Positions 17,770-64,000 of a stretch of DNA of 64,000 nt are shown here, in pieces. The notes below the pieces were generated by a model. The model saw only the letters and a list, made by a program, of their open reading frames with translations, did not search any database and was not told the origin of the DNA. This DNA comes from Rhodamnia argentea (Eukaryota > Streptophyta > Magnoliopsida > Myrtales > Myrtaceae): the NCBI RefSeq assembly GCF_020921035.1, contig NC_063156.1, positions 4,960,001-5,024,000 on the forward strand, read 5' to 3'. A program made the position numbers and the translations under genes. Position 1 is the first letter of the stretch, and every line of letters starts with the position of its first letter.

Positions 17770-20125
17770 AGCCGCCTCCTAACCAGCGGGAGATAAGGTC
17801 CCGTTCGCGGTCCCGTTTGCGGTGCTGCTTGCAGATTGAGTTGGCCCTGAAGCTCCGTGGGTCCAGTCTTCTGTTTCGTTCGCGGTCCCATTCGCGGTCC
17901 GTTTGCAGTGCTGCTTCCAGTCTTCAGACTCGTACAACTCAACAAACACAAGTTCATGAGATCCTGGAGCCCCTTTGTTCTGTCCGGACATTCAACTAAT
18001 CTTGCATCCTGCCTCAGTAGGCTGGACAAAACTTTCTAGTCTGCCCATCGAGTCTGGCAAATAGCAACCACTATCGCCCTGGATAAGCAAATCCCTCGTC
18101 AGTTGCCTTCTTATCCCAAAGCTGTTCATCCGTAACCTCAGACGTCCGCAGCTCCTAATCAAAGGAGGCAGGACCGCAATGGTCGTCCCAGATAGATCCA
18201 ACTCAACCAACGAACTTAACTCCCCCACAGTATCCGGCAGCGAATTTAGACTAGTACAATTCACCAAACACAAGTGCTCAAGACCCACCAGCCCTTTGAT
18301 TGTTACCGGGAGCCCAACTAGTCCTGTATCTTCCATTACTAGCCTTGACAAACCTCTTAGATTGCCGATCGAGTCTGGCAAATACCGAATGCTAAAACCC
18401 TGGATCAAGATGAGCTCTTTCAAGGCAGTTAGATGACCAATTTCCTCGGGCAACTCTTTAAGAGATGGACACCATTTGATTTTCAAGTAAATCAACTGCT
18501 GTAGTTCACCAATTGAGTGATCAATTTCAGCCAACTGCGGGAAATCTTTCAGAACCAATCTCTCCAAACTCCTAAATTCAGAGAAGCACGGAGTTTTGAT
18601 TAAGGATTTAGACCCCACGATTTTCAAAACTTTCAGTTTACTTGCTACCTGCAAAACAGAAACCAACTTAATAATCTCAAGATTCTGTATGCATTGCAGA
18701 ATATGTGCATGTCATCATATACTAAGACAATCAGTAGAAAGAGTAAATGAATCTGGTGAAATTGTACCATGATTTCAGCCCATCGGCGCCATTCTTCTGT
18801 GGTGATATTGCCTGAAAGCTTGAGAACAACGAGGTGATTCAGCACAAAGTTGTCCGCTTGAAGTCGCGAAGGACAATTTCGCCACCAAAGCCATCTTAGC
18901 TCCGGCAAAATATCCTCGCAGTCGTCAGTAAAGTTCCCTCCATCCAGTTTGAGATACCTTGCGTTCGTGAAATTCGCAAAATCTTTCCGTATGAAATTTT
19001 GTCTCGATTTAGTTGGCGTGAGTGCTGCCACATTTGTTGCTCCCTGATGGAAAATATAATATAAACGTACTCGTTATAGTGCTATCGAGACGCAACAGTT
19101 ACATAAACCTAAAGACACTTTTTGTTCGTTTGAATGTGAGAATTATCTAGATAGAAGAAGATAGATTTTGCTACTTTATATTTTAAGATAAAGAACCTCT
19201 GTCATATACCAATTTCAGAGAACTTGTAAAGTTAAAAGATAGATTGGATAGGTGTGATCATGTAATGGATAAGTTCAATAGGTCTTCTAAACCTTTTGTT
19301 TTTATCTTATTTAAATAATTTTGGAAATGCGTGCACTAATTATTTGTGGAAAAAAGAAGAAGAGATAATTAGCAAATTTCTTTAACGAAAAAAAAAAATT
19401 GATTCACAAGTTTTTCTATTACGGGCTTCTTAGCTTGTAATAAATAAAGAAGGCAATATGCAAGAGACCCGTACTAGTGTAGAAAAGAATAAAATGGGGT
19501 TGTTTGTACTTACCTTTTTTTCGCTTGGGACGGACATCTCGAGAAACCACAATCTGCTTCAATCTCCCCAGTTTTTGATATTCTTTAGACGAACGATCTC
19601 TCTCCCAAGATCTCTTAACTGATCATGCATTGATATCCTATCATGATCAATCTTGATCAAGGACTTTCGGATAAGGACGTCAATTTCGACTTCCGGGTAA
19701 AAGTCACAAGCTTCCCACATATACATTGCATTAGTTTTTTTGTTGTTAACAAAGAAACATGCAATGCCCAGAAAAATTTGTTGCCCCTCACGTCCAAGTG
19801 CGTCATAACTAATCTTTAACCTCTCTTGGACCTCTTTGTGAGGCACTTCCTTCAACTTGGTCAGTGTGGTTTTCCACTTTGCTTTACTTATGGTACGAAG
19901 ATGTGAACCTACCACCTCTAGAGCCAGTGGAAGTCCTCCGGTGCGTTCAACAACCTGTCTTGAAAGATCATAAAGACCACAAGGAGCCGAATCTGTGTTG
20001 AAAGCACGCTTGTTGAAAAGTGGCAAAGCATGATCAAAATGCATTTCCTTCATTTCGTGCAGAAACTTTTGCCCAGACTGTGTTAAGACATTTTCTTCTG
20101 ATCCATCCATATTTGGTCATAGGAA
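17770..20125 (-). pseudogene. TNL pseudogene C (5'-truncated NB-ARC, linker exon, LRR)
   Basis: Remaining exons match gene B. They are the 3' half of the NB-ARC exon (20125-19514), the linker exon (19043-18768) and the LRR exon (from 18648 down to about 17992, then out of frame to about 17900). Seen features are TGGLPLALEVVGSHLR, the MHD motif as MHDQLRDLGREIV, and LRR units such as [21 protein letters not shown]. The TIR exon and P-loop half are gone: similarity to gene B stops abruptly at about 20125. An Arg CGA codon after NWGD is TGA, an in-frame stop. A frameshift follows GCKIS, after which the LRR text resumes in another frame as LVECPDRTKGLQD. At its end a GC-rich run (about 17900-17790) repeats GP/GT-type motifs. 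Non-functional as an NLR. Confidence 0.9.
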
Positions 20126-21263
20126 ATTAGTCAGATGAACACAATTGAAAAAAAATATGAAAATGATTACGACTAAATTATCGAAATTGAAAGGTTTAAA
20201 ACTGAATTGACACAATTATACTAGATTTATGGCTTTTTTGGTACTTTTCCTCCCTCTACACACACCTATACGACATCATTTCTGATTTAATTACTAAAAC
20301 AACGAGAAACATATGATATCTTCACCATCTTGCCCAATTGATTCTTAAATCTAACTATAGGTGTTTCCGAGAGAAAAGTGAATAATTGTTTATAGGCATT
20401 TTGTTTTTGACATAAGACTAGGTAGTCCAAATCCACTAGCCCGCTTCGATCGAAAAGTAGCGTGTATCAACACTCTAGGGTCAAATATGGAGGATATGGA
20501 AGTAAGGAAATAATGTAAAAAGTGTTAAATTTATTGCAGTTTTGTCAATTTAATCTTTAATTTTTTTTGTCGATTGGATTCTAAACCTTTCGTATTTGTA
20601 CCAATTCAATCTATCCGACTAATTTTGACTTAAAATTGACATCATAGATGTCGATCGTCCTACGTGGTACGGCCGACAACGACGTGAACAATTTTTAATA
20701 ATATTTTAATTATTTTCGAATCATTTATTTATTTATTTATTCTTTTTTTCTCTCTCTCTTTCTTTTCTTCCCTTCCTTCTTCCTCCAACCTGTCGTCGAG
20801 TCAAAGGCGAGGGCCGGCAAAGTCGACCTCACCAGCCTCTAGCATAGCTCGCCCCTACTAGCCACTGGCAAGGACAAGCCTTATCAGCCCCTGCCTAGGC
20901 TCAACATCGTGGCGAGGTCGACATCATTGGCTAGAGGCAGAAGGAAGGGAAGAAAAGAATAGGAAAGAGAAGGAAAAGAAAAAAAAAGTAATTCGAAAAA
21001 AATATTAAAATATTATTAAAAAGAGTCCACAGCCCCGGCTGTGCTAGCTAAATTGGATTTGATTCTGCATGAAGTTAACTAATCCCATCTCAATGTCCGT
21101 GTACTCAATGAGGAAGAAGATCTATTCATAAAACTTTCAACAAGACAACAACAAGACAGCTTAATAAATGATGTAGCAAAAGATCTAAGTACATATGCAC
21201 AGAAACCGAGCAATGCTCATCTATATCATGTTTATCTCTTCTTGAGCAGTCGGAAGTCTGGAT
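20126..21263. repeat. Non-autonomous repeat remnants between pseudogene C and gene B
   Basis: At about 20165-20245 lies the end of a family of dispersed elements, recognisable by the GGTTTAAAACTGAATTGACA core; related ends occur near 38.5, 41.2 and 51.1 kb. A second element of about 550 bp lies at about 20500-21040. It contains an internal imperfect inverted repeat (TTTTTAATAATATTTTAATTA near 20690, complementary to a run near 21000) around a GC-rich core. The truncation point of pseudogene C coincides with this repeat zone. No gene seen. Confidence 0.55.
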
Positions 21264-24200
21264 TTATCGACAGGAAGCTCCGATCGATTGGAGCACTGTC
21301 CACACGTCTGACCGGAGATCCAGCCTATTCATTCTGCTCATCTCGCAGCACCGCAAAGCCAAACGAGTCAACTCCTCAGCCAGCTTATAGGGCCACTCTC
21401 CAGCCAATGGATCCAACATGGCCTCCGAAGTCCCTGCACTGATTGCCCTTTGCACTACGTTGGCTATTCCTAAGGCGGGCCTCCTCGTCAATAACTCAAG
21501 CAGTATAATCCCGAAAGAGTAAACGTCAGACTTTGTGGTGAGCTCTCGCGTGACAAGGAACTCAGGGTCCATGTACCCAAACGACCCTACGGTGGTGCTG
21601 TTGGTCGACCGCTTGCCGCGGGACAGCAGCCGGCAGATGCCAAAATCACTGAGCTTGCTCGCGGGGTGCGCATCCAGTAGGATGTTCCCCGGTTTGACGT
21701 CCCTGTGGACGATGCTGTGAGGCGTGCAAGAGTGGAGGAAGGCTAGGACGGAGCAGAACTCCATGGCGGTGCGCATTTGGACTTGCCAAGGCGACTGCTT
21801 CACCCTGTTGCTGCTGCGGAGCCAGTCTCCGAGGCTTCCGTTTGGAATATGTTCGTAAACAAGAGTGCAGGGATCGGGACAAGCACCGATGGGCGTGATG
21901 AGATTAGGATGCCTTACCTTGCTTAACGTATCCACCTGTGACAAATTAATCAAGAGTTCGTTGATCAGCAATGATAATCTCGATCACAGTGAGTAATGTA
22001 CTCTTACAGTGAATTCGTGATGCCATAATGATATTATTATGAGAAACAAATTCATTTCCAGATGAACCAAAGTCCTCATATTATTTGTATTATTCTTAAT
22101 TATGGTTTAGAGAAAACATGAAAAGAAGTAGAGGATACTCAAGAATTCTTACCTCCTGTCTAAATTCTTGTGAACCTTGCATGCTAGGAAATTTCATGAT
22201 CTTTATGGCCACCGGTGTATGTCGAAGGAAACCTCTATACACGCTCCCATAACTGCCTTCTCTGATCTTCAAGGACGGATCGAAGTTCTGCGCAGCATCC
22301 CAGATTTCGGTCATGGAGAACTCGGACAAGTACTCAATGCGGGAGGAATCTCCTTTTCTTCTGCTCACCTCCTTGGCCTTCTGGAGCGCGTTCTCGAAGT
22401 CGATCTGCAGCAGCTCTCGCTCTTGTCTCAAAGTCCGTGACATTTCATTGGCCTCAATAATTTTCAGCTCCAACTCCTTTCTGCTCTGGGCTTGGGCAAC
22501 GCGAAGTTTTTCCATCACTGTATCTAGCTGATCCTTCGCCTTCTCAAGTTCTTCCTCCAATTTTTTCTGCCACAGGTCAACAAAACATCTTTTATCTTCG
22601 TGTAAATTGAGTCATACATGCGAATTTCTATTAAACAGGAGAAGCAAAGGTAGAAACATGGCCTCCCCTTGTCTTATTTTGTGCATACCAGAGTGTTAAA
22701 AAGTAATGAGCCGATATGATCGTCTGACTGAATCGAGTGCGGATGATGGGCAGGACTCCTTGAAAACTGTCCGATTTCTTGGAAAGTTACTTGTCTCTTC
22801 ACCATGCTCGCCGCACTGGGCTGCACTGAAGGAGTGCTATCTGGGGAAGGCGAAGCAATTGGCATCGCCGCACGTCTGTCGGCTGAAGAGAAAGCTCTTT
22901 TCAGAATGTCTTGAAATGGATTGCTCAACTTCGCCGTACCACTTCTCTGTAGTGTGGCGGATTCAGATTGGGAGAGGATTGAGTTTCCGGCTCCGAGGGT
23001 AGAAGTTGTCAGCGGTGGCAGATCCCTGTTTTCAAAAGGAATCAAAACAACTTTCATGGTGAAGCCAAAAGTGACGCATCACTTTATAAATGAATTGTAC
23101 GTACTAAGACTTCAAGAGCAGCAGCATAACATGCTGTTAATCTAACAATGGATTAAAAACAGTTACATAATTATTTCTCGATTTAACTTATTGTGCTATG
23201 AGCCGATCACCAGCACCGTCACGTGGGTGATCGATAGGTTCGAAGGAGACAAATTCAAAAGTTAAAAGGTTGGAGGATGACCTTGGGCGAATGAGGTGCC
23301 TGTCGTAGATAAACCAAATTGGATAAGAGACGTGAGCTTTATCGCGAACGAAGACGGCTTTTCTGGACTTGATTTCTATTTTCCTGCCAATTCGAAACCA
23401 AGGAAGACAGTGAATTGATTTGGTGTAGATACAGATGATACCAAACACAAACTTGTAGATACATACAAGATTTTAGATTCTTGGAACGATATATCGCCAG
23501 ATTTTCTTCATTTGTTTAGAAAAACAAGACCTATTTCTGATACATGACGTATAATGATGGACTGGGGGCGAACTAGGACATCGAGTTCAACAAGCGCTAC
23601 CATGTTTTCCTCAAAGATCAGACATGTTCAACACATACTTTAAGGATTAATAAAGATATAAGTGTCGGGTTTAATGGCGCAAATGAGGATCCAAACAAAC
23701 GTGTCCTTTTTATTTTATGAAGAGGACAGGTTTAGACGAATAAGTCATCGACCATGCGGGCTTGTCTTCTTGTTCTTATACGTACCTGAAGTAGCGGTTG
23801 GTTGCTGCAGCAACCATCGCGACCTTTCTGGTAATATGCAAACACCTGACTTCTCGATTCTCGGAAAGATATGTCGTCTGTTCTTGTACGTACTTGAAAT
23901 AGCGTCTGGCTGCTGTTGCATCAATTACAAGCTTTCTGATCCCATGCAAACGTATGGGCTCCCCAATTCCCGTATGGATGATGTTCGATTCTACGTACTC
24001 TTTTTCTACCGGTGCCTATCAACCGATAAACAAATTAATTTGCTTCACTATAATCGTCTCTAAATGAAGTACATATATAATCATGTAAACTTTTGCCACG
24101 CTAGAACTGCATATTTATATATGTGCCATTCACTAGCACTTTGTTAAGAAGTCATTGACCAGGATGTTTGATCATCTAAATGAAGAATAAGAAGAAGAAG

Positions 24201-27200
24201 AAAGTAAATATACCCCCATTTTCTGACAAAAACGCAGGTAGGTATCCGTGATCTTATGCATGTTCATCCTCTCGTTTTCTCTGTGTTCTCTCGGCATTAT
24301 CTCGTCCAGGCCTCCTGTAAAGCAAGGGCAAATTAAAGGCACAATCAATTGTAATTTACAGAACAGTAAAGGCAATAGAAAATGCATGGATTGTGATATG
24401 CAGAGAGAAAAAGAAAGAAAGATCGTTGGCTTACCCATGGGGATCGTCTGTGAAGGGACTAGAACATGAATGATACAGATCTTGACTTTGCCTCCTGATT
24501 GATGCACCGCCCAAGCAAGCTTCGCTTTGTCCTCTTTCATATCCTTCCCAACTGCGACATAAATCATGCCTTCCAGAACTGGCGTCTCCAGTTTTGTCGA
24601 GACCCTTTGAATGCTCCGATCGATTGGATCACTTTCCACACGCCAGAGATCCAGCCAATTCCTTCTGCTCATCGCCCCGCACCTCAAAGCCAAATGAGTC
24701 AACTCCTCGGCCAGCATATAGGGCCGCCGTCCAGCCAATGGATCCAACATGGCCTCTAAAGTCCCTGCACTGATCGCCCTTTGGACTACGTTGGCTATTC
24801 CTAAGGTGGGCCTCCTCGTCAATAACTCAAGCAGTATAATCCCGAAAGAATAAACGTCAAGCTTTGTGGTGAGCTCTCGAGTAATGAGGAACTCAGGGTC
24901 CATGTACCCAAACGTCCCTATCGGGTCGGTTGGGCACAGTACGGGGGTGCTGTTGCTCACGGGGTGCGCATCTAATAGGATGTTCACCGGTTTGAGGTCC
25001 CCGTGGACGATGCTGTGAGGCTTGCAAGAGTGGAGGAAGGCTAGGGCAGAGCAGAGCTCCGTGGCGATGCGTTGTCGGACTCGCCGAGGCAACTGCTTCG
25101 CCCTGTTGCTGCTGCAGAGCCAGTCTCCGAGGCTTCCGTTGCGTTCAACAACTTGTCTTGAAAGATCGTAAAGATCACAAGGAGCCGAATCTGTGAGGAA
25201 AGCATGCTCGCTGAAAAGTTGCAAAGCATGATCAAAATGCATTTCCTCCATTTCCTGTTCCCAGATAGCTGTCCCAGATAGATACAACTCAGTCGATGTC
25301 CTTAACTCCCCAGCAGCATCCGACAGCGAACTTGGATTCGCAAAGTCCAACAAAGACAAGTATTCATGATCCCCAAGCCCATTGATTGTCTCCAGAAATC
25401 CATCTGATCCTCTATCGTCCATTGATAGCCTTAGCCAACTTCTTAGATTGCCGATCGAGTCTGGCGAATGACGAACACTAAGACCCTGCATAGGCAAATC
25501 CCTCATCAGCGGTGCTCTTATCCCAAAACTGTTCATCCGTACTGTCAAATTTTCAAGCTCCCAAATAAAACGAGGCAGATTCCCAACAGTTGTCCCAGAT
25601 AGATCCAACTCAGTCAACGACTTCAGCTCCCCAACCGCATCCGGCAGCGAATTTAGATTCGTACAATTCACCAAACACAAGTGCTTAAGATCCACCAGCC
25701 CTTTAATTGTGTCTGGAAGTTCAACTAATCCTGTATCCTCCATCACTAGCCTTGACAAACCTCTTATATTACCTATCGAGTCCGGCAAATCACTAACACT
25801 ATGACCCTGGATCAAGATGAGCTCTTTCAGGGCAGTTAGACAACCAATTTCCTTAGGCAACTCTCTAAGCCGGGGACACCATTTGATTTTCAAGTAATTC
25901 AACTGCCTTAGTTCACCGATCGAGCTATCAATTTCGGCCAACCTCAGGAAATCTTTCAGTACCAATCTCTCTAAACTCATAAATTCAGAGAAGCAAGGCG
26001 TTCTGATTAAGGATTTAGATCCCGCGATTTTCAAAACTTTCAGTTTGCTAGCCACCTGCAAAACAGAAACCAACTTAATACTCCCAGGATTCTGTATGCA
26101 TTGCAAAATAGGTGCATGTCATCATGCATTAAGACAATTAGGGGAAAGAGCAAATGAATCAGGTGAAACTGTACCATAATTTTGACCCATCCGCTCCATT
26201 CTTCTGTGGTGATATTGCCTGAAAGCTTGAGAACAACTAGGCGATTCAGCACCAAGTTGTTCGCTTGAAGTTTCGAAGGACAATTTTGCCAAGAAAGCCA
26301 TCTTAGCTCCGGCAAAACATCTTCACAGTCATCGGTAAAGTTCCCTCCATCCAATCTGAGAAACCTTGCCTTCGTGAAATTCGCAAAATCTTCGCGTGTG
26401 AAATTGTGTCTCGATCTCCTTGGTGTGAGTGCTACCGCATTTTTCGTTCCCTGACAGGAAAATAAAATATCAAACGTATATCATATAACAATCTTTCTCC
26501 TTGGCAGATGACTATATCTATGCTTTCATATAAAAATATACACTAGTTCTTCGACCTATTGTGCCTAATTATGTTAAGTGCTTATGCTGTAATAGTTACT
26601 AATGCTTGTTTTTGATCCCATGGAACTTATGTTTGTTACTTAGCAATCTGCTCGCTTGGCAAAGAAGCTGATCTATTACCAATGTAACCTTTTCAAAACA
26701 CTCAAATATGTAATTCATGGTAACTCGGTAAAGAGTTAAAGTAAACATGACGTCACTTACTGAATTTGAATCAATCTCTTGAAGAGAGAATTCTTTAACT
26801 TTACCGGACGTTACCAATGTAACCTTTTCAAAACTCGCTCCTTTATAGTGCTATCGAGACCCAACAGTTTCATAGACCCTAAAGACTTGTTTTTTTTTTT
26901 TTTTGAATGTGCGTTATATAGATAGAACAAGATGGATTTTGCTACTTCATACAAAAAACCTCGTCATATACCAATCAGGAAATTGTAAAGTTAAACATAG
27001 ATGGGATTGGTATGATTATGTAATGGAAAAGGTTCAATTGGTCTTTCAAACCCGGTTTTTTTATCTTATTTCAATAATTTTGGAAATGGGGTGCACTATT
27101 TATTGATAATCAAAAAGAGATAACTAGCAAATTTCTTTGACGAAAAAAAAAATGAATTCACAAGTTTTTCAATTACGGGCTTCTTAGCTTGTAATAAATG

Positions 27201-29172
27201 AAGAAGGCAATATGCAAGAGAGATCAACTCTTAGACACACAGTAGTGTGAAAAAGAATAAAATGGTGTTGTTCGAACTTACCTTTTGCGCTTGGAACATC
27301 TCGAGAAACCATAATCTGCTACGATCTCCACAGTTTCTTATATTCTCTTGACGAATAATCTCCCTCGCAAGATCCATTAACTGACCATGCATCAATATCC
27401 TATCATTATCAATCTTGATCAAGGACTTACGGATAAGGATGTCAATTTCCACTTCCGGGTAAAAGTCACAAGCTTCCCACATATGCATTGCATTAGCCTT
27501 TTTCTTGTTAACAAAGAAACATCCAATGTCCAGAAAAATTTGTTGCCCCTCACATCCAAGTGCATCATAACTAATTTGTAACCTCTGTCGGACCTTTTCG
27601 TGAGGCACTTCCTTCAACTTCTTCAATGTGGTTTTCCACTTTGCCTTGCTTATGGTGCGAAGATGTGAACCTATCACCTCAACTGCCAATGGAAGTCCTC
27701 CGGTGAGTTCAACAACTTGTCTTGAAAGATCATAAAGATCACAAGGAGCAGAGTCCGTGTTGAAAGCAAGCTTGTTGAAAAGTAGAAGAGCATGATCAAA
27801 ATGCATTTCCTTCATTTCGTACGGAAAAATATGTCCAGACCGGGACAAAATATTTTCTTCCAATCCATCGACATTGGTCATAGGAAAATCTCTTGTCGTA
27901 ATGATGATCCTACTCCCCGGACCATACGAGTAAGAATTCATCGCCAGATTCATAAATTGATCTTTTTCACCCATGTCATCCAAAACAAGTAAGACACGCT
28001 TCTTAGGTAATATTTCTTTGATCATATTATTTCCTTCCTTAGGGTCGATGGTTTCATGAAGCAAGAAACCGAAAAGATCCTCCACTAATTTTCTTTGCAT
28101 TTTTAGAATGCCGTGGCATGAAGATGACTCGTGGATGTTCGAAAGGAAGGAGTGACCTTCAAATTGAGGAAAGAGTTGGTTGTACACTGTTTCGGCAAGA
28201 GTTGTCTTTCCAATGCCACCTATCCCATGGATAATGACAAATCGTACGCCACCAGTATCACAACTTAACAGTTTCTTTATGGCTTCTACATGATCATCAA
28301 TTCCAACCAGATCGGTGGGCAAATACCTTTTCCTTATTGTGATCTTCTGCAAGACCGTTTCAGTGATGTCTGCAATGACCTTGCCATGCCTGCCATATTC
28401 ATGAAATCGTTGCGCGTAAGACTATGTATAACCAATTAGAATTTCAAATAGAAGCATATAATAATGATAATCAGCGTGCTGTTATGTATTCTTCATGTGG
28501 TATTCGCCATGGATGTTCATAAGTGGCTCCTTCCACATGAATCAAGTAAGGCTTTCTCTTTCGGAGTTCATCAGCAGATGTATAAAAAAATGCGTGCTTG
28601 TGTGCGCTATACACGACCAGAAGGTAGATATAGCAATGACCCAAATGGATATATAGACAGATAAATAAAAGAATATCGTGTCGGTACCTTCGACCTTTCA
28701 CACACCATCCCCTGGTTCTAGCCACCGTGGTCAAAGCCTCCTTCCAAGGCTGCACTTCAGCGCAGCCAAGTTCCTTCTCATGCTTGTTTAGGGCGCTATT
28801 GTACATCTCCGTTTCAAGCTTAACATCAAAGGGTTCCACGTCGAAAAAGATTGGTAGTATCTCTTTCCCCGTGGATTGGCGAGTGCACTCCACCATGCAT
28901 GTCAGCTCTCGGAGGCACCACCGACTCGAGGCGTAGCCTTGGGAGAAAACTATAATGTATATTTGGGAGCATTTTACTGCTCCCAAGATCTCCGAGATAT
29001 TTTTGCCCGGACCTAGCGCTTCCTCGTCCCTAAAAATGCGGATTCCTGTGCGGTTCATGTACTCGTAAAGGCAATCTGTGAATGTGTCGCGAGTGTCGGG
29101 TCCTCGAAAGCTCAAGAACACGTCGAAGTCGCCACATGTCGCAGTCCCTGAGTCGGCCCCTTCGTCCCCCAT
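21264..29172 (-). CDS. Gene B: TIR-NB-ARC-LRR fused to pseudokinase fragment, USP, coiled coil and kinase
   Basis: Ten exons join in frame to 1745 aa: 29172-28688, 28389-27282, 26450-26175, 26055-24435, 24314-24214, 24015-23894, 23383-23282, 23025-22689, 22566-22153 and 21935-21264. The TIR (about 12-155) has [11 protein letters not shown] and the catalytic-type Glu in WCLREL. The NB-ARC (about 180-500) has the P-loop [12 protein letters not shown], kinase-2 [25 protein letters not shown] and GLPLA; its MHD motif is MHG. The LRR is at about 624-885. Exon 4 continues into an NB-ARC scrap ([14 protein letters not shown], about 890-928), a kinase fragment (about 928-1107, HGD, no DFG) and the start of a USP domain ([19 protein letters not shown]). 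The USP ends near 1271; a coiled coil follows at about 1385-1450, then a complete RD kinase (GSYGSV loop, AIKI lysine, [12 protein letters not shown]). No U-box follows. Known family: RLCK-IX/PUB-type USP-kinases. That all ten exons form one transcript is inference; a separate internal promoter for the USP-kinase part is the main alternative. Confidence 0.7.
23765..23990 (-). repeat. Tandem duplication of a USP exon in gene B
   Basis: Two roughly 110-bp units lie side by side (about 23985-23879 and 23878-23768). Each encodes the [16 protein letters not shown] end of the USP domain followed by a GTACGT donor. The upstream unit is the one whose phase joins correctly to the next exon ([17 protein letters not shown]). 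The second unit could act as an alternative exon or be dead. Confidence 0.7.
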
Positions 29173-29745
29173 CTGATAACAGAGATTGATGTCGCCGACG
29201 ACTTCTTTTTGTGGTCCTTGAGGAGATTTCTACAGCAAGTGGGACTTGCCACGTCAAGCCACATCGACATATTATTTTATCAGTATATGGCTAATAAAGT
29301 CTCGTTGATTGACCGTGTTTTTGTGCCTATAAGATTGGTTTTTATACTTCCCTTCTTCCCTTTGACAGTTTGCATTAACAATTTAACATTGAAAGCCCAC
29401 GGTGAAGCGAAAGCGCAAAGCAATGTCTTGGAAAAAGTCCTTGCTTAATAAAACCATGAGATGCGATTAAACCTGATTAAAAAAAAAATGCAATGGAGTA
29501 CTTGCAAAAGTACAGCACATTCGAAAATCACAAAAAAAAAAAAACACAAAAAAATGCGTCACCTTCAAAAAAATTTGGCGTGCGATTGACGAAGTGCATC
29601 CATGGGAGAACCACAATAAAAAATCAAAAGGACAAAAAAAAAATGGAAATTCTATAAGACGAAAAATCATTGAAGATATAAGATCATCATCGTCGTCCAT
29701 CAAATTAAAAAGCAATAGAAAAGCCCATTACCAACTGCCCCTATA
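29173..29745. other. Upstream leader and flank of gene B
   Basis: The first about 60 bp share sequence with the leaders of the other TNLs (the GAGGAGATTTCTACAGC-like motif, also near 32970 and 51890), so they are probably 5' UTR or core promoter. The rest is AT-rich with many short A runs and no gene. Confidence 0.5.
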
Positions 29746-33615: not shown

Positions 33616-36090
33616 TGTCGCGACCTAAAAATTCAGAAAATTTCCAGGCTAATGGATTATCTGGTTAATTATTTAACCAACCTAACTCGGACTCTCCCAA
33701 ATCCATACCAAATCGCAACTTGAGGTTCAATTGATTAACATGCAATGTATTTTAATTTTGGAGCCGCCACTAATCATTTATGGTAGGTCGATTAGAAACC
33801 TAAATAAAATAGTGGGAGAACTATTTTATTCCTACGAACTAGAGATTAAGAGTTCGGGGACTTGATTACGCCAGATTACTCTAACGCCCTTTCGGTAACA
33901 TTTTATTTCATGAAAAATCATTTAAGAAGGCAACATTAATTGATTTTAACCTAAGTCACTAACAAAGGTTATCATGCGGGTGCACAATCAATTAATGAAC
34001 ATCCAGAAATCAATATAATCAAGGGAGCATGCGCCACACAAAATTATTTTTTTATTTTCGATTTTTATATGAATGCATGAAAGACTATACTACATATGAT
34101 GCAATGCCGTGATGCAAATGCAAGACTAAGTTAAATGACGTGCAAAAGATGACATGCAAATGAAAATTAACTCCGTGACATATGAATTAATTAAAATTTT
34201 AAATATGCAATTTTAAACTAAAGTAACAAGATATGCTTATAGTTTAATTAAATGGACTACGTGATGTTGGAATCAATTAAATTAACCTAAGCATACAATT
34301 CTACATGCAATACAAACTAACATGCAACCTATATGACACGGTATGAGATGACATAGCAAAGATGAATGACGTGGCATGGATGACGTGGCAAAGATGACGT
34401 GGCAAAGATGAATTTTTTTATTTTCGGATGAATTTATTTCCTAAAATAGAACTATGCCAAAACAATTTTTATCTTGTATATTTTAGAGTTTACATTGACC
34501 TAAACCCTAATATATTGAAGATATATTATTTTAAACATAAGATTCTATTTAAACATGCAATTTCTATTCTAGTATGCAATCTAACCTAAATAAAAAATTA
34601 GATATGCAATATCTACTTGATGTTATTTTTTAAAAGATGCAATTTTCAGATATGCAAAGTGAATGAACGCAATTTTTTTTAATTTTTTAGATCACATCAT
34701 GCCACGGGTATATTCTAAAAAAAATATGACAATCAAACAATTCAAGTCAAATTAGGAAAGTGAATATACCAATCAATGTCAATCAAGAAAGTGGATATAT
34801 TAATCAATTTTTGAAATCTTTCGCGAATATTTGAGTTAATCTTTAATTCGTAATCTTACGATTAACGATTATACCCAAATCCTTGCCTAATCGAGTATTC
34901 CATCAATAATCCTAAAGATGGACGTTCTCGATTGTGTGACAAGTTGCGGATTAGGAAAGAAAATTTTCCTAATCAACCTGTATTTTGAAAAAATATCCAC
35001 TTCGATGCAATATTCAAGATATGCAAATAAATCACAAAATAAGCAAGTGAATATATCAAAGTTCAAGATAGGAAATTTACCTTGTCTTGCAAAATTTGCA
35101 CTTTCCACAAATTGCACACCAAGCTTCAAGCGATCGACCGAATGGCTAGGGAAATTCATACGCACGATTAGGATTAACAAAGCGAAATCATAGCAGCTAT
35201 TTAGCATCTTAAACAGCACCGAACAGTGGAGATATTGTGCCAAAAAAAATGTGATAATCGCTCTCAAAGCACTAGCAAAATCTGCACTGAAGCATTAGCA
35301 ATAACACCCAAAAAACTGCACTATTTTTGAACCTAACAGTGGCTAAATTGAGCACCAAACAGTGATGAAATCAGACTCAAACGACAAAGTATCTAGCACC
35401 AATGCACAAGGACTTCAAATGCTAAAATCTAGCTCGAACGGACACCGGACAGTAGCGAAAAAAGGCTTGGACAGCAGCGGAAACCAGTGTGGAAAGCAGC
35501 GATTTTGGACCCTGAATAGCAATCAGAAGCACCGAACAGCAGCAAGAGATCTTCGGTTGATAAGTAGAGGCGTTGAATAGCAGTAAAAGACCTACGAAAC
35601 AGCGAGCAAAGATGCCGAACAGCAGCAAAAATCGGCCTCGGGGGGAAACCTTCAACCTTTCTCACCGTTTTCCTCTTCACGCCAATCTCACGTGAATTTG
35701 ATGTACGTGCAGAAAATTTTTTGCTCCACCCACTTTTGTGAACGTCCATGACATATGTATATATAGGCATGAGATTAGGGTTTCTTGCCCATATCTCTTT
35801 CCTATTTTCATTCAAAGGACATATTATGATATCTCTACGATATTATTGAAACAATTGGCTCATTTATCCTTTAAGATTTGAAATATTATTGCCCCCAAAC
35901 CAATATTACGAATTTTAATGAATTAATTGCTTCCATCGTCGGTCCTATAAAATGCAAATGTAATGCATGAATGCTAAAATTAATGATAAAAATGATTTAA
36001 TTATTTTTTTTGTGAGAGCTAAAACTAATCCTCTTTTTTTTTTTATACAAGATAAATGATTTAAGAAAAATCAAAATTTAGGTGTCAACA
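33616..36090. mobile_element. Solo LTR (2475 bp) with 5-bp target duplication
   Basis: The element starts TGTCGCGACCT and ends GGTGTCAACA, that is TG..CA, and is bounded on both sides by AATTG (33611-33615 and 36091-36095). The paralogous unoccupied site is visible near 42000, where the two flanks are directly joined. No second LTR, gag or pol is present, so this is a solo LTR left by LTR-LTR recombination, or less likely a non-autonomous insertion. Inside are three tandem TGACGTGGCA boxes (34367-34404) and an area rich in ACAGCAGC-like words (about 35210-35640). Confidence 0.9.
34367..34404 (+). promoter_or_regulatory. Three tandem TGACGTGGCA boxes in the solo LTR
   Basis: Identical decamers lie at 34367-34376, 34381-34390 and 34395-34404, a period of 14 bp. 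The word contains a TGACG half-site and an ACGTGG core, the type bound by plant bZIP factors (TGA and bZIP28/60-like UPRE, consensus TGACGTGG). Any activity is inferred. Confidence 0.6.
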
Positions 36091-39420: not shown

Positions 39421-39494
39421 ACATATTCGACTTTCAATAGCACTAGCATATTCTAATTGAGTTAAAGACTACAGTATTTGATGCCTTTTATCTT

Positions 39495-39977
39495 TCATTT
39501 GCCATCCCCTGATTTTGTTTTCGGAGCCTCCTTCCATGGCTTCACTAGAGTGCAGCCATGGTCCTCCTCATGCTTCCGTAGGGAGATTTTGTATAGCTCC
39601 GTTTCAAGCTTAACATCCGAGTTATCCCCATCGTAAAAGATTGGTAATATTTCTTTCCCCATGGGTTTTCGAGTGCAATCCACAATGCATGTCAGCTCTC
39701 ACAAGCACTATTTACTCGAAGCATAGTCCTTGGAGAAAATAGGAATATATTTTGAGGAGATTCTTATTGCTTGCAGAATCTCTGGAATCTTTTTGCTAGT
39801 CCTAACTCGTCGTCGTCCCTCAAAAGCGGATTCATGTGTGTCACTCATGAACTCGTAAAGGCAGTTTGTAAATCCGTTATGAGTGCCGGGTCCTCGAAAG
39901 CTCAACAACACGTCGTAGTTGCCACCAGTTTTCGACAAAAAAAAATGTTGACCTCTCCGTCCCCCATCTGATAACAC
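39495..39977 (-). pseudogene. Lone TIR exon relic of a TNL
   Basis: Similar throughout to exon 1 of gene [10 protein letters not shown] leader, YDVLLSFRGPGT, CLYEFMSDT, SKDYASSK, then a stop in place of the Trp of the WCLREL motif, and on as [11 protein letters not shown] and VKPWKEAPKT. An inserted FFLSKT stretch near the N-terminus and a frame change in the HESAFEGRRRV region add to the damage. The exon 1 donor region is followed by copia debris, not by an NB-ARC exon. Confidence 0.9.
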
Positions 39978-43017: not shown

Positions 43018-46000
43018 TCACTTATGATGATGATGACCTCTCCTCCGATTGCGGCGGCACCAATGGAGAAAGGGAATGTACATATCTTCCCAGAATTGAC
43101 AAAAGTCTTCCTCAGGTATTTCTCTATAGATGACCTCACCAAACCATTTCATGGCCCTGGCGAATTCCCACGCAAGGCGAGTTTTTTGCTTGACGTCAGG
43201 TGCGCGGCCAAGGAGCGAGCGAGCCTCTTCGAACATGTAGTCATAATGCGGCTTTGTCTTCATAAACGGGCTCAGAATGCAACAATGAAAACAGACGCCA
43301 ACCGCATACATCAGCAAACGCTTATCTAAGTAGTTATGCAAGCATAACCATGTTAGATTTCGCTGCCCCATGGCTCGCAATCTACCCCAGCGTGTTTTCC
43401 TCAGTCGGCGACTCGTGCAGTTCCTGAAGCTTCTTCTAGACCCCGGACCCTGAACTTGAGTGGCCTCCTGATGCCAAGAGTTCAACATTCCAATGTAGTC
43501 TGGAAGTTTTTTGCTCGACCACGGAATTCTCAGCAGCAGATTGGTAGAACGCAAGATTTGGGATGAGAATTGGGTTAAGATCTCCAGAGTCTCCACCCGA
43601 CAACCAATCTGATCACTCCGCCCAGGCTCGAATAAGGAAATTAAAACGGCAATGGAAAGCTGAGGAAACCGAGGAGAAGTTTCCAACGAAGGACTATCAC
43701 TGAACTCTCTGACCTCCGAGGTTATGCACATACAATAATCGCAGAATTCCAAAGAGAGCAGTTGTTCGTCTTTTCTCTGATATTCATGCATCCCCTTGGA
43801 TACCCACTTTCTTTCCCCCCAGGTCACGAGCATTAACATCAGGTTTTTCATGTACCGAATTGGTTGAGACGAGGTCATTATCCCGGTGTCCCCAAGTGGG
43901 ACTTCCGCGGCAATATTCAACCGCAAATCATCACCGGGAGAAAAGATTACCCTCGCTAAAATCTTAGGTAAGCCCCTCCCTGAAAGGTGATTCTCATGAA
44001 ATCCTGGCGTTACAACTTTCCTCGCGTCCTGACTAATTGCAATCTCGAACGGGTCATCTAGTTCCAGTTCTGCAAGGTCCAAGCGATCCTCGAGATCTTG
44101 CATGAGAGTCCGATACCTCACCAGTTGTCTGCTTAGCTTACTACCTACTATCAGATCTCGGACTTGCCAAAGCGATGGAGGTAGTTCCTCGATGGGTGTC
44201 CCAAATAGATTCATGTGTGTCAACGACTTTAGCTCTCCAACAGCATCCGACAGCGAATTTAGATTCCTACAATTCGCCAAACACATGTGCTCAAGATCCA
44301 CTAGCTTTTTTATTGTGTCCGGAAGTTCAACTAATCCTGTATCCTCCATTATTAGCCTTGACAAAAGTCTTAGATTACCAATCGAGTCCGGCAAATAACA
44401 AACACTACAGCACTCGATCAAGATGAGCTCTCTCAGGGCGGTGAGAGAACCAATTTCCTGGGGCAGCTCTCTAAGAAGCGGACAACGTTTGATTTTCAAG
44501 TAAACCAACCGCTTTAGTTTACCGATTGACCGACCGATTTCGACCAATCCTGTATCCTCCATTATTAGCCTTGACAAAAGTCTTAGATTACCAATCGAGT
44601 CCGGCAAATAACAAACACTACAGCACTCGATCAAGATGAGCTCTCTCAGGGCGGTGAGAGAACCAATTTCCTGGGGCAGCTCTCTAAGAAGCGGACAACG
44701 TTTGATTTTCAAGTAAACCAACCGCTCTAGTTTACCGATTGACCGACCGATTTCAACCAATCCTATATCCTCCACTATTAGCCTTGACAAAAGTCTTAGA
44801 TTACCAATCGAGTCCGGCAAATAACAAACACTACAGCACTCGATCAAGATGAGCTCTCTCAGGGCGGTGAGAGAACCAATTTCCTGGGGCAGCTCTCTAA
44901 GAAGCGGACAACGTTTGATTTTCAAGTAAACCAACCGCTCTAGTTTACCGATTGACCAACCGATTTCGACCAATCCTGTATCCTCCATTATTAGCCTTGA
45001 CAAAAGTCTTAGATTACCAATCGAGTCTGGCAAATAACAAACACTACAGCACTCGATCAAGATGAGCTCTCTTAGGGCGGTGAGAGAACCAATTTCCTGG
45101 GGCAGCTCTCTAAGAAGCGGACAACGTTTGATTTTCAAGTAAACCAACCGCTCTAGTTTACCGATTGATCGACCGATTTCAACCAATCCTGTATCCTCCA
45201 TTATTAGCCTTGACAAAAGTCTTAGATTACCAATTGAGTCCGGCAAATAACAAACACTACAGCACTCGATCAAGATGAGCTCTCTCAGGGCGGTGAGAGA
45301 ACCAATTTCCTGGGGCAGCTCTCTAAGAAGCGGACAACGTTTGATTTTCAAGTAAACCAACAGCTCTAGTTTACCGATTGACCGACCGATTTCAACCAAA
45401 CTTGGTAAATCTTTCAGAACCAATCTCTCCAAACTCATAAATTCAGAGAAGCAAGGTGTTTTGATAAAGGATTTGGATCCCGCGAGATTCAAAACTTTCA
45501 GTTTACTTGCCACCTGTAAAACAGCAACCCACTTAATACTGTCGGGACTCGACAAGCAATGCAAACTAGGTGCATGTCCTCACATATTCAGACGATTAGT
45601 TGGAAGAGTAAATGAATAAGGTGAAATAGTACCATCATTTCGACCCATTTGCTCCATTCTTCTACGGTGAAATCACCTGAAAGCTTGAGAACAACTAGGT
45701 GATTCAGAACAAAGTTGTTTGCTTGAAGTTTTGGAGGAAAATTTCGCCAACAAAGCCATCTTAGCTCTGGCAATATTATCTTAAAGTTGCCAGCCAAATT
45801 CTGTCCATCCAATTCAAGAAACCTTGCGCCCCTGAGATTCGCACAATCTTCGGGTGTTAATTTGTAATTGTGTCTCAATTTCCATGATGTGAATGCTTCC
45901 ACATTTTCTGTTCCCTGAGGGTAGGAAAACAAAGTTAATAGCCACTAACATCACCTTAGGTATACCTTATAAGGCCTCAGATTTTATTTTGAGATAATTA

Positions 46001-49000
46001 GTTATCGAGTTATATGAATAATAATTAAGACTTCGTTCTCATATGAGGTTCTAGATATTTTGTGGATTATTAGAAGGACTGGTTTCTTATAATTCCTTTT
46101 TTTTATTTGCGAGACATTGCTACATTTGAATCACAATTTTGAACAGAGAATTACCCGACATATTCATAAAACCTTAGACCTTTTTTTTTTGTTCAAATGC
46201 GCATTATCTAGATAGAACAAGATAGATTTTGCTATTTTATACGTAAAACCTCACCATATATCAATTAGACAAATTGCAAAAGTCAACAGATAAATTGTAT
46301 TGGTATGATTTTGTAATGGAAAAGTTCAAGTGGTCTGTTAAATCTAAATTCTCTTGTTTTCTATTTCTATCTTATTTAAATAAATTGGAAAACGGCTGCG
46401 CCGTTTATCGGTGAAGAAATCAGATAATTAGCAATAAGGGAAAATGTAATTAATCAACAAGTTTCCCATAGTACAATAACTGAAGAAGCGAATGTGCAAG
46501 AGAGATGAATTCCCAGACGCGTAGTAGTGCAGGAAGGAATAAAATAGGGTTGTTGGTACTTACCCTTTTAGCCTGTATTATGTCCGGGGCCATCTCGGGA
46601 TGCCACAATCTGCTTTGATCTCCAAATTTCCCGATAGTCTCTCGACGAACAATTTCTCTCCCAAAATCTCTTACTTGATCATGCATCCATATTCTATGAT
46701 CAACAATCTCGATCAAGGATCGATTGACAAGGACGTCAATTTCAACTTTCGAGAAAAGGTTACAAGCTTCCCACACATACATTGCTTCAGTTTTCTTCAT
46801 GTTAACAAAGAAGCATGCGATGTCAAGAAAGATTTGTTTCGCCCCATATTCAAGAGCCTCATAACTAATCTCTAACGAACAACGGATTTTGTTGTGAGGC
46901 GCTTGCTTCAACTTCTTTGGTGCGCTTTTTGAAACTGCTCCAGGTACCATAGGGTCCCAGCAATCCTCAATACCTTCCAAGCGAGGCAAATCCGACATCA
47001 GTTGCATTCTTATCTTACTACTGTTCAACCGCAACGTCAGATCTTTGCGGTTCCAAATCGAATGAGGTAGTTCCTTGATAGTTGTCCCAGATAGATCCAA
47101 CTCAGTCAACGACTTCAACTCCCCAACTTCATCTGGCAGCGAGTCTAGACTCGTACAATTCGCCAAACACAAGTACTCAAGATCCGCTTGCCCTTTGATT
47201 GAGTCCGGAAGTCCAACTAATCCTGTATCCTCCATTACTAGCCTTGACAAACCTCTTAGATTGCAGATCGAGCGTGGCAAAGCACGAACGCTGAAACACT
47301 GGATCAAGATGAGCTCTCTCAGTGCAGTTAAATGGCCAATATCCCAGGGCAACCCTCCGAGACGCGGGCACCATTTGATCTTCAAGTAAATCAACCGCTC
47401 TAGTTTACCAATTGAGCTGTCAATTTGAGTCAACCTTGGGAAATCTTTCAGAACCAATCTCTCCAAACTCGTAAGTTCAGGGAAGCAAGGTGTTTTCATT
47501 AAGGATTTAGATCCCGCGATTTTCAAAACTTTCAATTTACTTGCCACCTGCAAGAACAGCAACCGGCTTGATATTGTCAGGACTTCGTTATGCATTGCAA
47601 AATAGGTGCATGTCATTATATAGTCAGACGATTAGTTGAAAGGGGAATGGATTAGGTGAAATCGTACCATGATTTCAGCCCATCCGCTCCATTCTTCTGC
47701 GGTGATATGGCCTGAAAGCTTGAGAACAACGAGGTGATTCAGTACAAAATTGTTCGCACGAAGTTTCGGAGGACAATTTCGCCAACAAAGCCATCTTAGC
47801 TCCGGCAAAATCTCCTCAAAGTTGCCGGCAAAGTTCCCTCCATCCAATTCAAGAAATCTCACGTTCATGAGATTCGTAAAATCTTCACGTGTAAAATCGT
47901 GTCTTGATCTCCATAGTGCGAGCGCTATCACATTTTCTGTTCCCTGGAGGTAGGAAAACAAAGCTAAAAAACCACTACCGGTACCACAGGTATACATCAT
48001 TTCATTTACTATCGAATCGTACACTATGAAAGTTGAAATTGAAATCCATAATAAATGTGGACAGACCAATTCTGCTTTGTGGCTTAATCAAAGTCTTTGT
48101 GATTTTGGCCTTAACCATGGCCGATGTACTCAGCAATGAAACTGACTTATTTGTAGTTTTTGTTGGTGTTGAGTAGGATTCAAGAACAAGAAAAGGACAA
48201 TATCATAATTTTTGTACGACGCTCACTTTTTTGTTGTAATTTTTCCACTGATTATTTAAGTGTTTCTTTTTCAAAAAACCTTTCATTCTATGAGATGTTC
48301 TGTTAATTCAACATATGTTTGTCCTGCAAAATCAACGGGAAAGTCATTTGGCAGTTGCTCGCCTTAGGTCAATTAGGTCCTTCACAAACCCTTTCCATGT
48401 CCCCACAATGACATCGGCGATTTCCCTTGCCGGACAATACAACAAGGGAATTTGTCGACTTTCTTGTTCATGGCCATGATCCTTGGGCATAATTCCATTT
48501 TCGACTTTCACTCTCTTTTAAAAAAAACAAAGTCGGATATGTTTTTAATAAATAAATCCATGTGAAATTTGTTGCCGGAGGTATATTACTGGAGTCATTC
48601 AAATGAAAAATTATACGACTTATGCAACTAAGTGTTATGCTACAAAAGTGAGCTTCATACAAAGATTATGACATTGTTAGCATCCTTTTTCCGGAACTTG
48701 GAGGCTGAGTTCAATTTTATCAGAGTGCGCAGCGGAATGAATATTTTTTTCATTTCAATCTTGATGGAGGTGTGAACTCCTGTGATTATGATTCTATGGG
48801 TGAATTTCGATGGAGTTGATGTGTGTAGGCTTTTGTGTAAAAGAATAATTTTCTAATATTATTTGAGGTTTAAAGGACTGAATGTTTTGAAGTTTAAGTG
48901 GTTAACTATCATTTCTGAGTTTTCCATGAATTATATACTCAAAGTAACTCAATAGGGAGTTGAAGGAAACATGACGATGCTCATTAAATTTGTATTAAAC

Positions 49001-61786: not shown

Positions 61787-64000
61787 TGTTGTAATATAAC
61801 GCGGAAGCTAACCCGGATCTTGCAAATAAGTCAATGCGAAAAGCCACGAGAAATAACAATGAACAATAAAGGACACCAGAAATTACGTGGTTCGGTCCGA
61901 ATATCGGTACCTACATCCACGGGAGAGCCAAGAAGAACAATCCACTATAATCGGAGAATCGGAATTACAATCGCTCAATACGCTCGTGTTTCCCGCACCT
62001 AGATTATACCCAAACCCAAAGTGTTCACAAATAAACAACTTACTTGGATATAACAAAATAAAACTCACGAAGTACAAAACTCAATCGCGTTCGGCACTCC
62101 TCGCAATCTAAGAGAGAACCCAAAGAAGAGCGTCGTCCTCTTATCCTCGCGGCGCGAACTTGCGGTTCCATCTCTCTGCAAAGAAAAGACTACCTTTTCT
62201 TTTGTGCGGCTTCGGTCTTATATTTCAGCCTCACTCTGCACAACCTTTTTTCTTTTGTCCAGAGAAAGTAACCTAAAAGCACCTCACTCCCTTTTTGTTT
62301 TGCTTTTTCTCTCTCTGACAAACTTGGCCCCCCAATTTCATACACCACATAACTTACGAAGGCTTTTCTTCCCTTTTGAACTCTTTGGGGCCCACCATGA
62401 TTTCTTGATCTACCATTACTCAAGAAACCATGTGCTCTTCTTTCTTTCCTATCGGACCAAAATCTTGAGTAATGATCAAACGTGGTCCCCATATTTTATC
62501 TTGTGGTGCCAATAACAATTTTAAACTCGAGACATATTTAACAATTCTCCACCTTGGCTCGATGTTTGAAAGCCAAGTTAATAATGCTCATCATCCATGC
62601 TGCTCTCCCAACGCCCCCACGAGCGCTCACTCTCTACAGACGCCAATAGTGCTCAAGCAAAGCTTGAGCTTCGCCAAAGGAACAGGCTTAGTCATCATGT
62701 CCGCGGGGTTCTCTGCTGTAGCAATCTTTTTCACAACAACCTTACCCTTCGCTAAGACATCTCGGATGAAGTGGTACCTGATATTGATATGCTTTGTTCG
62801 CTCGTGATAAACCGGATTATATGCCGGATAAATCGCACCTTGGTTATCACATTGTATATCAACACTTTTCTGTTCTAACCCAAAGTCCATGAGCAAACCT
62901 TGCAACCATATCGCCTCTTTCGCTACAAAAGTCGGTGCCATGTACTGCGCCTCGATCGACGACAAGGCTACGTGGTCCTGTAAGGACGCCTTCCAACTAA
63001 TCGCACCACCTGCAAGCGTAAATACGTACCCGGCTAAAGACCCGCACTCATCCAAGTCACCCGCATGATCGGAATCCACAAAACCGGTGGTCTCACTGCC
63101 ATTATTGTCCCTCCGGTATACTATACCAATGTCTGATGTCCCCTTCAAATATTCGAGGATCCATTTCACGACTTCCCAATGAGTTTTACCGGACGCTTCA
63201 TATAACGACTAACCACACCGACGACTTGTGAAATATCGGGCCTAGTGCATACCATAGCATACATAATACTACCCATGGCACTAGAATAAGGAACACGAGA
63301 CATATGCTCCTCTTCCTCCTCGGTTTGCGGTGATAACTTAACCGAAAGTTTAAAGTGCTTTGCTAATGGTGTACTCACGGACTTCGTTGATCGCATATTA
63401 AAACGTGCAACAATTTTCTCAATATATTTCTTTTGAGACAGACGTAATAATCCTGCAGTCCTGTCACGCAAAATCTCCATACCCAATATTTTCTTCGCAG
63501 CACCTAAATCTTTCATCTCAAACTCAGCACTCAATCGCCTCTTCAACACATCAATATCGGACATATTTTTCGCTGCTATCAACATATCATCAACATATAA
63601 TAGCAGATATATCAAAGACCCGTCCTCCAATCTCCCGAAATAAACACGGTTATCCATCTGACTCTTTGAATAGTCCCGACTAGCCATGAAAGCGTCAAAC
63701 CGCTTATACCACTGTCTAGGAGATTGTTTCAGCCCATATAAAGATTTCTTTAATAAGCAAACATGATCTTTCTTACCCGGAATAGCAAATCCCTCCGTTG
63801 CCTCATGTAAATCTGCTCCTCCAACTCACCGTGAAGAAACGCCGTTTTCACATCAAGTCGCTCCAACTCGAGATCCCGTGCGGCAACAAAGGCAAGTAAA
63901 ACACGAATAGAAGTATGCCTTACCACGGGAGAAAACACCTCACTGTAATCAATGCCTTCCCGCTGGGTATACCCCTTCGCAACAAGTCTCGCCTTGTATC
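61787..64000 (-). mobile_element. Ty1/copia retrotransposon, 3' part (Tork/Tnt1-like), runs off the right edge
   Basis: The 3' LTR spans 62543-61787 on the minus strand (TGTTAAATATG..TATTACAACA, 757 bp), preceded by a purine tract ending GGTGGAGAAT. Above it the polyprotein reads RNase H (63169-62627: STxGY-like LAGYVFTLAGGAISWKA, LSSIEAQYMA, a KHINIRYHFIRD piece) and reverse transcriptase (63687-63166: YVDDMLIAAKN, MKDLGAAKKILGMEI, then KKYIEKIVARFN; 63938-63750: [14 protein letters not shown]). Two one-base deletions shift the frame, one after IYMRQ (about 63800) and one after SRYMKRP (about 63190), so this copy is not autonomous as it stands. Lineage from RT wording; low certainty. It interrupts TNL pseudogene E in the NB-ARC exon. 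Confidence 0.92.

Follow-up and report, generated by a model that had tools for sequence, protein, structure and literature searches.

How does a plant immune receptor come to carry a whole kinase gene in its reading frame, and does that kinase have any task there? This question is raised by a minus-strand gene of Rhodamnia argentea, in a window of 64,000 nucleotides (contig NC_063156.1, positions 4,960,001 to 5,024,000), where a receptor with TIR, NB-ARC and LRR domains (TNL) is followed in the same frame by a USP-like domain, a putative coiled coil and a protein kinase. As read from the assembly, the in-frame TNL/USP-kinase architecture is real. The reading that we favour, with a little less than even confidence, is that of one chimeric gene, a TNL with an integrated domain (TNL-ID), whose USP-kinase tail is non-catalytic and whose frame remains open while the kinase residues drift.

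Under this model, the LRR exon of the TNL runs in frame into a USP-kinase descended from a family that forms a tandem array on contig C3 (the window lies on contig C7, as C7:4960001-5024000). The anatomy of the locus suggests that transcription would proceed from the TNL promoter to the 3' end of the kinase gene, giving one long TNL-ID protein. To judge from its constraint, the TIR/NB-ARC/LRR half would work as an ordinary TNL, and the tail would be an appendage rather than a working signalling kinase, with amino acids that drift and a frame that stays open. Stop codons that are followed by exon junctions expose an mRNA to nonsense-mediated decay. Apart from those behind the kinase, the locus has no recognisable stop codon or 3' end, and this decay is a likely reason for the open frame: an earlier stop, with up to six introns downstream, would make the TNL mRNA liable to it, so the tail may be retained although it has no role to fill.

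Gene Model and Domain Content

A preliminary description of this locus had proposed ten exons with canonical borders and one frame of 5238 nt, and the rebuilt model bears this out: ten minus-strand exons (Table 1), bordered throughout by GT..AG, encode 1745 residues without an internal stop. The window contains no Ns. When 36 combinations of border sites were tried at the ambiguous exon edges, four were open, the model described before among them; in the other three, exon 6 runs on to a second donor (23786), exon 7 ends at an earlier one (23315), or the two changes are combined. Exon 6 apparently has its end and donor duplicated (23786-24015), as two stretches of C7 align to the same ~60 bp of C3, and both exon-6 donors (23894 and 23786) leave the frame open.

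Pfam recognises in the model, all above the cut-offs, TIR (7.9e-35), NB-ARC (1.4e-29), LRR_14 (1.9e-18) and Pkinase (4e-59, in two stretches), and exon 4 on its own matches Pkinase (9.2e-17). TIR, NB-ARC and LRR thus stand in order within one frame, which is the definition of a TNL, and a foreign domain, Pkinase, shares that open frame, which is the mark of an integrated domain. The USP part is less well recognised. Pfam Usp matches neither the model nor two relatives, and the USP part gives a single match far below the cut-off in NCBIfam and a single chance-level match among PDB sequences (phmmer); the name is taken over from PUB33-like proteins. The U-box-bearing founder gene beside the C3 array has a weak DNA_photolyase match (Pfam E 0.006, below its cut-off), and this family, presumably a member of the USP superfamily, is at least compatible with the label. 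The domain list given before therefore holds for TIR, NB-ARC, LRR, a scrap of NB-ARC, a kinase fragment and a kinase, and its USP label goes without Pfam support. No U-box was found by Pfam in the 1745-aa model.

The Patchwork of Exon 4

The transition from receptor to tail takes place within exon 4, where the LRR is followed by the NB-ARC scrap, the kinase fragment and the start of the USP-like domain. The similarity of the TNL half to its neighbour TNL-B ends at 25348. The scrap (123 bp, 25257-25135) is 90.2% identical to 20059-19937 of TNL-B and 87.5% identical to the gene's own NB-ARC, with pairwise omega of 1.25 and 0.46, respectively, over ~40 codons and with very wide intervals. Synonymous divergence (dS) is 0.09 between the scrap and TNL-B, a rough figure from the same ~40 codons, against 0.29 between the NB-ARCs of A and B, and the fusion therefore seems to have come after A and B diverged.

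The kinase fragment (528 bp, 25140-24613) has neither the N-lobe nor the DFG stretch. With the last exon of the same gene it shares 83.4% identity, its pairwise omega against the full kinase is 0.83, and near its end a gap of 5 nt relative to the full copy shifts the reading into the USP frame. On the array tree the fragment and the full kinase of C7 are sisters (96% support). A recent copy of the neighbouring full kinase was rejected as its origin: the fragment retains a piece of the activation segment that is missing from the full copy, and so predates that deletion. At two of the three joins the adjoining pieces have a few letters in common, CGGA where NB-ARC meets kinase and GAGC where kinase meets USP.

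Origin of the USP-Kinase Tail

A search of the species' own genome (346.66 Mb, 74 contigs) with the last kinase exon gave 13 matches, two on C7, ten on C3 (28.425-28.572 Mb) and one of 93 bases on C8. The 180 kb fetched from C3 (C3:28415001-28595000) hold a tandem array. Seven of its last exons are near full-length, with identities of 81-85%, and five of these seven have USP exons upstream; the more distant founder comes in addition. Several copies are partial, and K7 has a stop in the kinase. In one of the array genes, K5, the exons correspond to C7 exons 4-10 and encode an open protein of 712 aa, or of 670-672 aa under three other acceptors for one exon, the acceptor of which is uncertain. 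Homology and common exon structure place the C7 tail in this USP-kinase family, and the homology extends to introns and 3' flank, which argues for a copy at the DNA level. With the whole 1745-aa model at E 0.1, no TNL-like match was found in the 180 kb of C3, all matches lying at residues of at least 915. For the TNL half, 18 of the 55 matches listed (40 of 190 candidates scored) exceed 200 bits, and all 18 lie on C7 at 4978-5030 kb. Within the window, 1.4 kb at 33616-35023 are 82% identical to C3:28559013-28560461, adjoining array copy K2.

The kinase of the founder reads on into a U-box split by an intron (Pfam 6.1e-20 after joining). None of the seven near full-length array copies does so; in six the stops after the kinase coincide to within a codon, and in K2 the stop comes ~12 codons later. 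This indicates that the U-box had already been lost in the lineage of the tail. Its loss through the fusion is accordingly rejected, and its absence, which had been presented as part of the fusion, no longer belongs to it.

At the other end, K5, K6 and K7 begin with MAVV..., ~20 residues before the start of the C7 homology. In the C7 gene the start codon and first ~20 residues of the array genes are replaced by the kinase fragment, and the 5' flanks of K5-K7 (600 b each), searched at E 1e-3, were not found anywhere in the window, while the 3' flank of the C3 genes is retained. With the USP-kinase start and 5' flank gone and the 3' flank kept, the locus has one start, that of the TNL, and one end, that of the kinase, which favours a single transcription unit. 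Short of proof, this anatomy would be the best sequence-only argument for such a unit.

Catalytic Site and Selection

The kinase of the tail departs from its C3 relatives at sites where these agree. The first glycine of the glycine loop, placed by alignment to the FERONIA loop, is conserved in 8/8 C3 copies and is Arg at C7 (GEGG, or GEGA in K8, becoming REGS). Seven residues of the activation segment are missing at C7, in a stretch that the fragment and all eight C3 copies have, the founder with one residue fewer. HRD is private to the full kinase of C7, the seven array copies, the founder and the fragment all having HGD. In the USP part, a glycine found in the six C3 copies that have that exon is Asp at C7. 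An active RD kinase is recognised in sequence by an intact glycine loop and activation segment, and the C7 tail has neither; the complete RD kinase described before is borne out in its HRD and not in these two elements. Private replacements at otherwise invariant kinase positions amount to 17/188 for C7 (one site being an intron artefact), 16/185 for K8 and 15/186 for K7.

Selection was estimated with a home-made likelihood, in which nine kinase branches were tested. Stops in K7 (kinase) and TNL-B (NB-ARC) were masked, the tree and the omega fits excluded the part of the fragment that does not align (codons at map positions 510-533), and the LRR fit covered exon 3 and exon 4 down to 25493, leaving out LRR fragment I (31.8-32.2 kb). 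For kinase exons 9 and 10, the C7 branch has an omega of 1.15 versus 0.33 for the rest (twice the log-likelihood difference, 2dL, 8.82), with a 2dL of 0.08 against an omega of 1. The other values are 0.21-0.29 for K3, K5 and K6, 0.44 for K7, 0.46 for K8, and 0.59 and 0.80 for the partial copies K1 and K2. At 0.65, the fragment branch differs significantly from neither the rest (2dL 2.15) nor 1 (0.88). For the USP and linker exons the values are 0.62 on the C7 branch and 0.56 for the rest.

The own branch of the TNL half is constrained in the NB-ARC (omega 0.26, 2dL versus 1 of 16.06) and in the LRR (0.44, 7.78), each the lowest of five window paralogues. Its MHD motif reads MHG; the four paralogues of the window in which this stretch is present (B, C, D and E) all have MHD. 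This variant could alter activity; with the three defining domains present, it is not taken as grounds to exclude the gene from the TNLs.

Compared with K5, the exons of the tail have 12 indels, eight of them multiples of three and the other four cancelling pairwise in exon 8; among the intron indels, 12/43 are multiples of three. These counts and the neutral simulations given below provide modest evidence for selection keeping the frame open.

Weighing the Explanations

Several points weigh against a chimeric gene with a non-catalytic tail. The single transcript and protein are predictions from gene anatomy, and the step through nonsense-mediated decay is one that we infer from general knowledge. 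The tail kinase retains the VAIK Lys, HRD and DFG. Its count of private replacements is less striking than its omega, although K8 and K7 sit on longer branches, and the omega signal itself has a nominal p of ~0.003, or ~0.03 after a Bonferroni factor for nine branches. The USP and linker exons are somewhat constrained (2dL versus 1 of 4.15 for C7), though this branch predates the move in part; likewise, the TNL branch may largely predate the fusion, its constraint being no proof that the chimera works, and some of the exon indels may predate the move. The reading from fragment to USP hinges on the 5-nt gap. In neutral simulations, which leave out frameshifts, the scrap and kinase fragment stay free of stops in 23% of runs (half of the branch divergence) or 5% (all of it), and the same pieces with the extra LRR unit in 8.6% or 1.1%. 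For the tail the outcome depends on the assumed rate, with 29%, 12% or 3% of runs free of stops in the kinase exons and 43%, 23% or 2% in the USP and linker exons.

Splicing could also bypass the join. With approximate matrices, an intron wholly within exon 4 was rejected, as no internal acceptor scores above 3.0, compared with 3.6-9.7 for the nine modelled acceptors. Two internal donors, 25761 (8.1) and 25773 (6.6), are nonetheless within the range of the modelled donors (3.0-13.0), and their splicing to the acceptor at 24314 stays in frame. The preliminary description was right to place the USP start within the modelled exon that codes for the LRR, but slightly too strong in ruling out any exon boundary as a way to explain away the fusion. 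Such a splice would leave out the patch together with the USP start and a portion of the LRR, and its product would still join the TNL to the USP-kinase. Paralogues B and E have the 25761 donor word once in their LRR exons, F and G do not have it, and the word may therefore simply belong to the LRR coding sequence.

A possible but doubtful alternative is that the degenerate tail is kept as an integrated decoy, so that an effector targeting the USP-kinases of the C3 array would touch the tail and trigger the TIR. The open frame across the tail, the altered catalytic motifs beneath a kinase profile that still matches, and the incomplete relaxation of the USP and linker exons agree with this, as does the standing of kinases among fusions of nucleotide-binding leucine-rich-repeat receptors (NLRs), where they are the most abundant class in PMC4759884 and among the three most frequent in PMC5067614. 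A bait, however, should retain some surface, whereas the kinase exons are without constraint; what PMC4759884 reports for integrated kinases is a conserved catalytic lysine and aspartate (retained here too), not altered loops; and no effector is known. That the TNL took a whole USP-kinase from a family on another chromosome as its C-terminal bait, the C3 array being the real target of the pathogen, we regard as unlikely. More improbable is a decaying chimera, in which the TNL drags along a dead remnant that is haphazardly spliced in, spliced around or polyadenylated away, without any role. The omega values of the kinase fragment, of the extra LRR unit (0.87) and of the C7 kinase branch would fit it, as would the MHG motif, the internal in-frame donors and inserted pieces that stay stop-free by drift in 5-23% of runs; against it stand the open frame as a whole, the lowest branch omega among the window paralogues tested in the TNL half, and a fragment branch that is not significantly relaxed compared with the rest.

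The remaining explanations have far less to recommend them. Two separate genes, the USP-kinase being transcribed on its own from a cryptic promoter in exon 4, would find in-frame ATGs near the USP start (24672 and 24567), but the original start, N-terminus and 5' flank are gone and no TATAWA motif occurs at 25400-24570 (many plant promoters have no TATA motif), which makes them very unlikely. We give hardly any credence to an active kinase that provides the receptor with its own output: the VAIK Lys, HRD and DFG are set against the lost first glycine, the shortened activation segment and an omega of ~1. The earlier interpretation, a bait or an own signalling kinase, thus keeps its real TNL/USP-kinase frame and a possible bait, and its signalling kinase is disfavoured. 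An assembly error at the join has next to no prospect; repetitive clusters such as this one invite it, but the window is without Ns, the joined pieces are ~10-17% off their nearest window relatives and hence not collapsed copies, and short shared sequence marks two of the three joins.

The Surrounding TNL Cluster

The features of the fused gene are collected in Table 1. Elsewhere in the window, a paralogous TNL LRR exon (44326-45399) holds five head-to-tail units of 213 bp with 97% matches, inside an open frame of 853 codons, a recent LRR expansion. In another paralogue (46450-47631) the LRR continues without a break in frame into the winged-helix portion of an NB-ARC, a piece whose branch omega is 1.05, and LRR-to-NB-ARC joins have thus arisen at least twice in the cluster. 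A TIR relative with five in-frame stops (39429-39929) is probably a pseudogene, and the open frames at 62627-63825, which by eye resemble a copia-type retrotransposon polymerase, are presumably of that kind.

Table 1. Positions in the window of the exons, exon 4 parts and flanking features of the fused gene
Feature	Position	Strand	Basis and remarks
Exon 1, start codon and TIR	28688..29172	-	Frame model, Pfam; TATAWA motif at 29346
Exon 2, NB-ARC and winged helix (MHD = MHG)	27282..28389	-	Frame model, Pfam; own-branch omega 0.26
Exon 3, LRR start	26175..26450	-	Frame model, similarity matches
Exon 4, whole	24435..26055	-	Frame model
Exon 4 part 1, LRR including diverged extra LRR unit 25491-25258	25258..26055	-	Similarity; extra unit pairwise omega 0.87
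Exon 4 part 2, NB-ARC scrap from a copy close to TNL-B	25135..25257	-	90.2% to 19937-20059
Exon 4 part 3, kinase C-lobe fragment	24613..25140	-	83.4% to the gene's own last exon
Exon 4 part 4, USP-like domain start	24435..24616	-	C3 comparison; shares GAGC with kinase tail at join
Exon 5, USP-like domain	24214..24314	-	Frame model; 27 nt shorter than in C3 gene K5
Exon 6, USP-like domain; 3' end and donor in second copy at 23786	23894..24015	-	Frame model, C3 alignment
Exon 7, USP-like domain end	23282..23383	-	Frame model, comparison with K5
Exon 8, linker	22689..23025	-	Frame model, comparison with K5
Exon 9, putative coiled coil and kinase N-lobe (glycine loop REGS, VAIK)	22153..22566	-	Frame model, array alignment
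Exon 10, kinase C-lobe (HRD, DFG), 7-residue activation-segment deletion, stop	21264..21935	-	Frame model, array alignment
3' flank common to C3 USP-kinase genes	21054..21263	-	DNA match
TNL-B, neighbour, matched from mid NB-ARC onward only	17990..20126	-	Closest relative of scrap

Comparison with Known Systems

USP-kinase genes with and without a U-box are of the PUB33-like / RLCK-IX kind. The exons of the tail correspond to those of the C3 array genes; unlike these, the C7 copy is without a start codon and N-terminus and is joined to a TNL. Rice genes with USP and kinase, and with USP, kinase and U-box, are described in PMC8355530.

The fusion of NLRs with kinases is already known as a kind, and what would be new here is the USP-kinase variant with a readable donor family and joins. 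The searches, confined to open-licence PMC literature without supplements, met with no description of such a variant with visible donor family and joins. Words starting with 'usp' have no occurrence in the main text of PMC4759884, PMC10720953, PMC12787737, PMC4709456, PMC5067614 and PMC9528084, a count outside which the domain lists of PMC10720953 and PMC12787737, placed in supplements, fall. PMC4759884 counts kinase fusions in 161 NLRs of 19 species.

Integrated domains usually appear as finished products, whereas here donor family, joins and change of selection can be read in one genome. Having both the donor array and the fused tail in that genome offers a direct test of bait versus passenger, C3 array against C7 tail. 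It is also a warning that an annotated NLR-kinase architecture can carry a kinase without visible amino-acid constraint.

RRS1-WRKY likewise carries a non-NLR domain after the LRR of a TNL. Unlike this integrated decoy (PMC5067614), the C7 gene has no effector, target or paired NLR assigned to it; a head-to-head NLR partner was rejected, the TNL matches found in the window being all on the minus strand. Closer in composition are Rpg5, Tsn1 and AT4G12020, likewise NLRs with an appended kinase, in the last case a TNL, according to PMC5067614, PMC9528084 and PMC4759884. Unlike these three, the unit appended here consists of USP-like domain, coiled coil and kinase, together with a second kinase fragment and an NB-ARC scrap, and its glycine loop and activation segment are altered.

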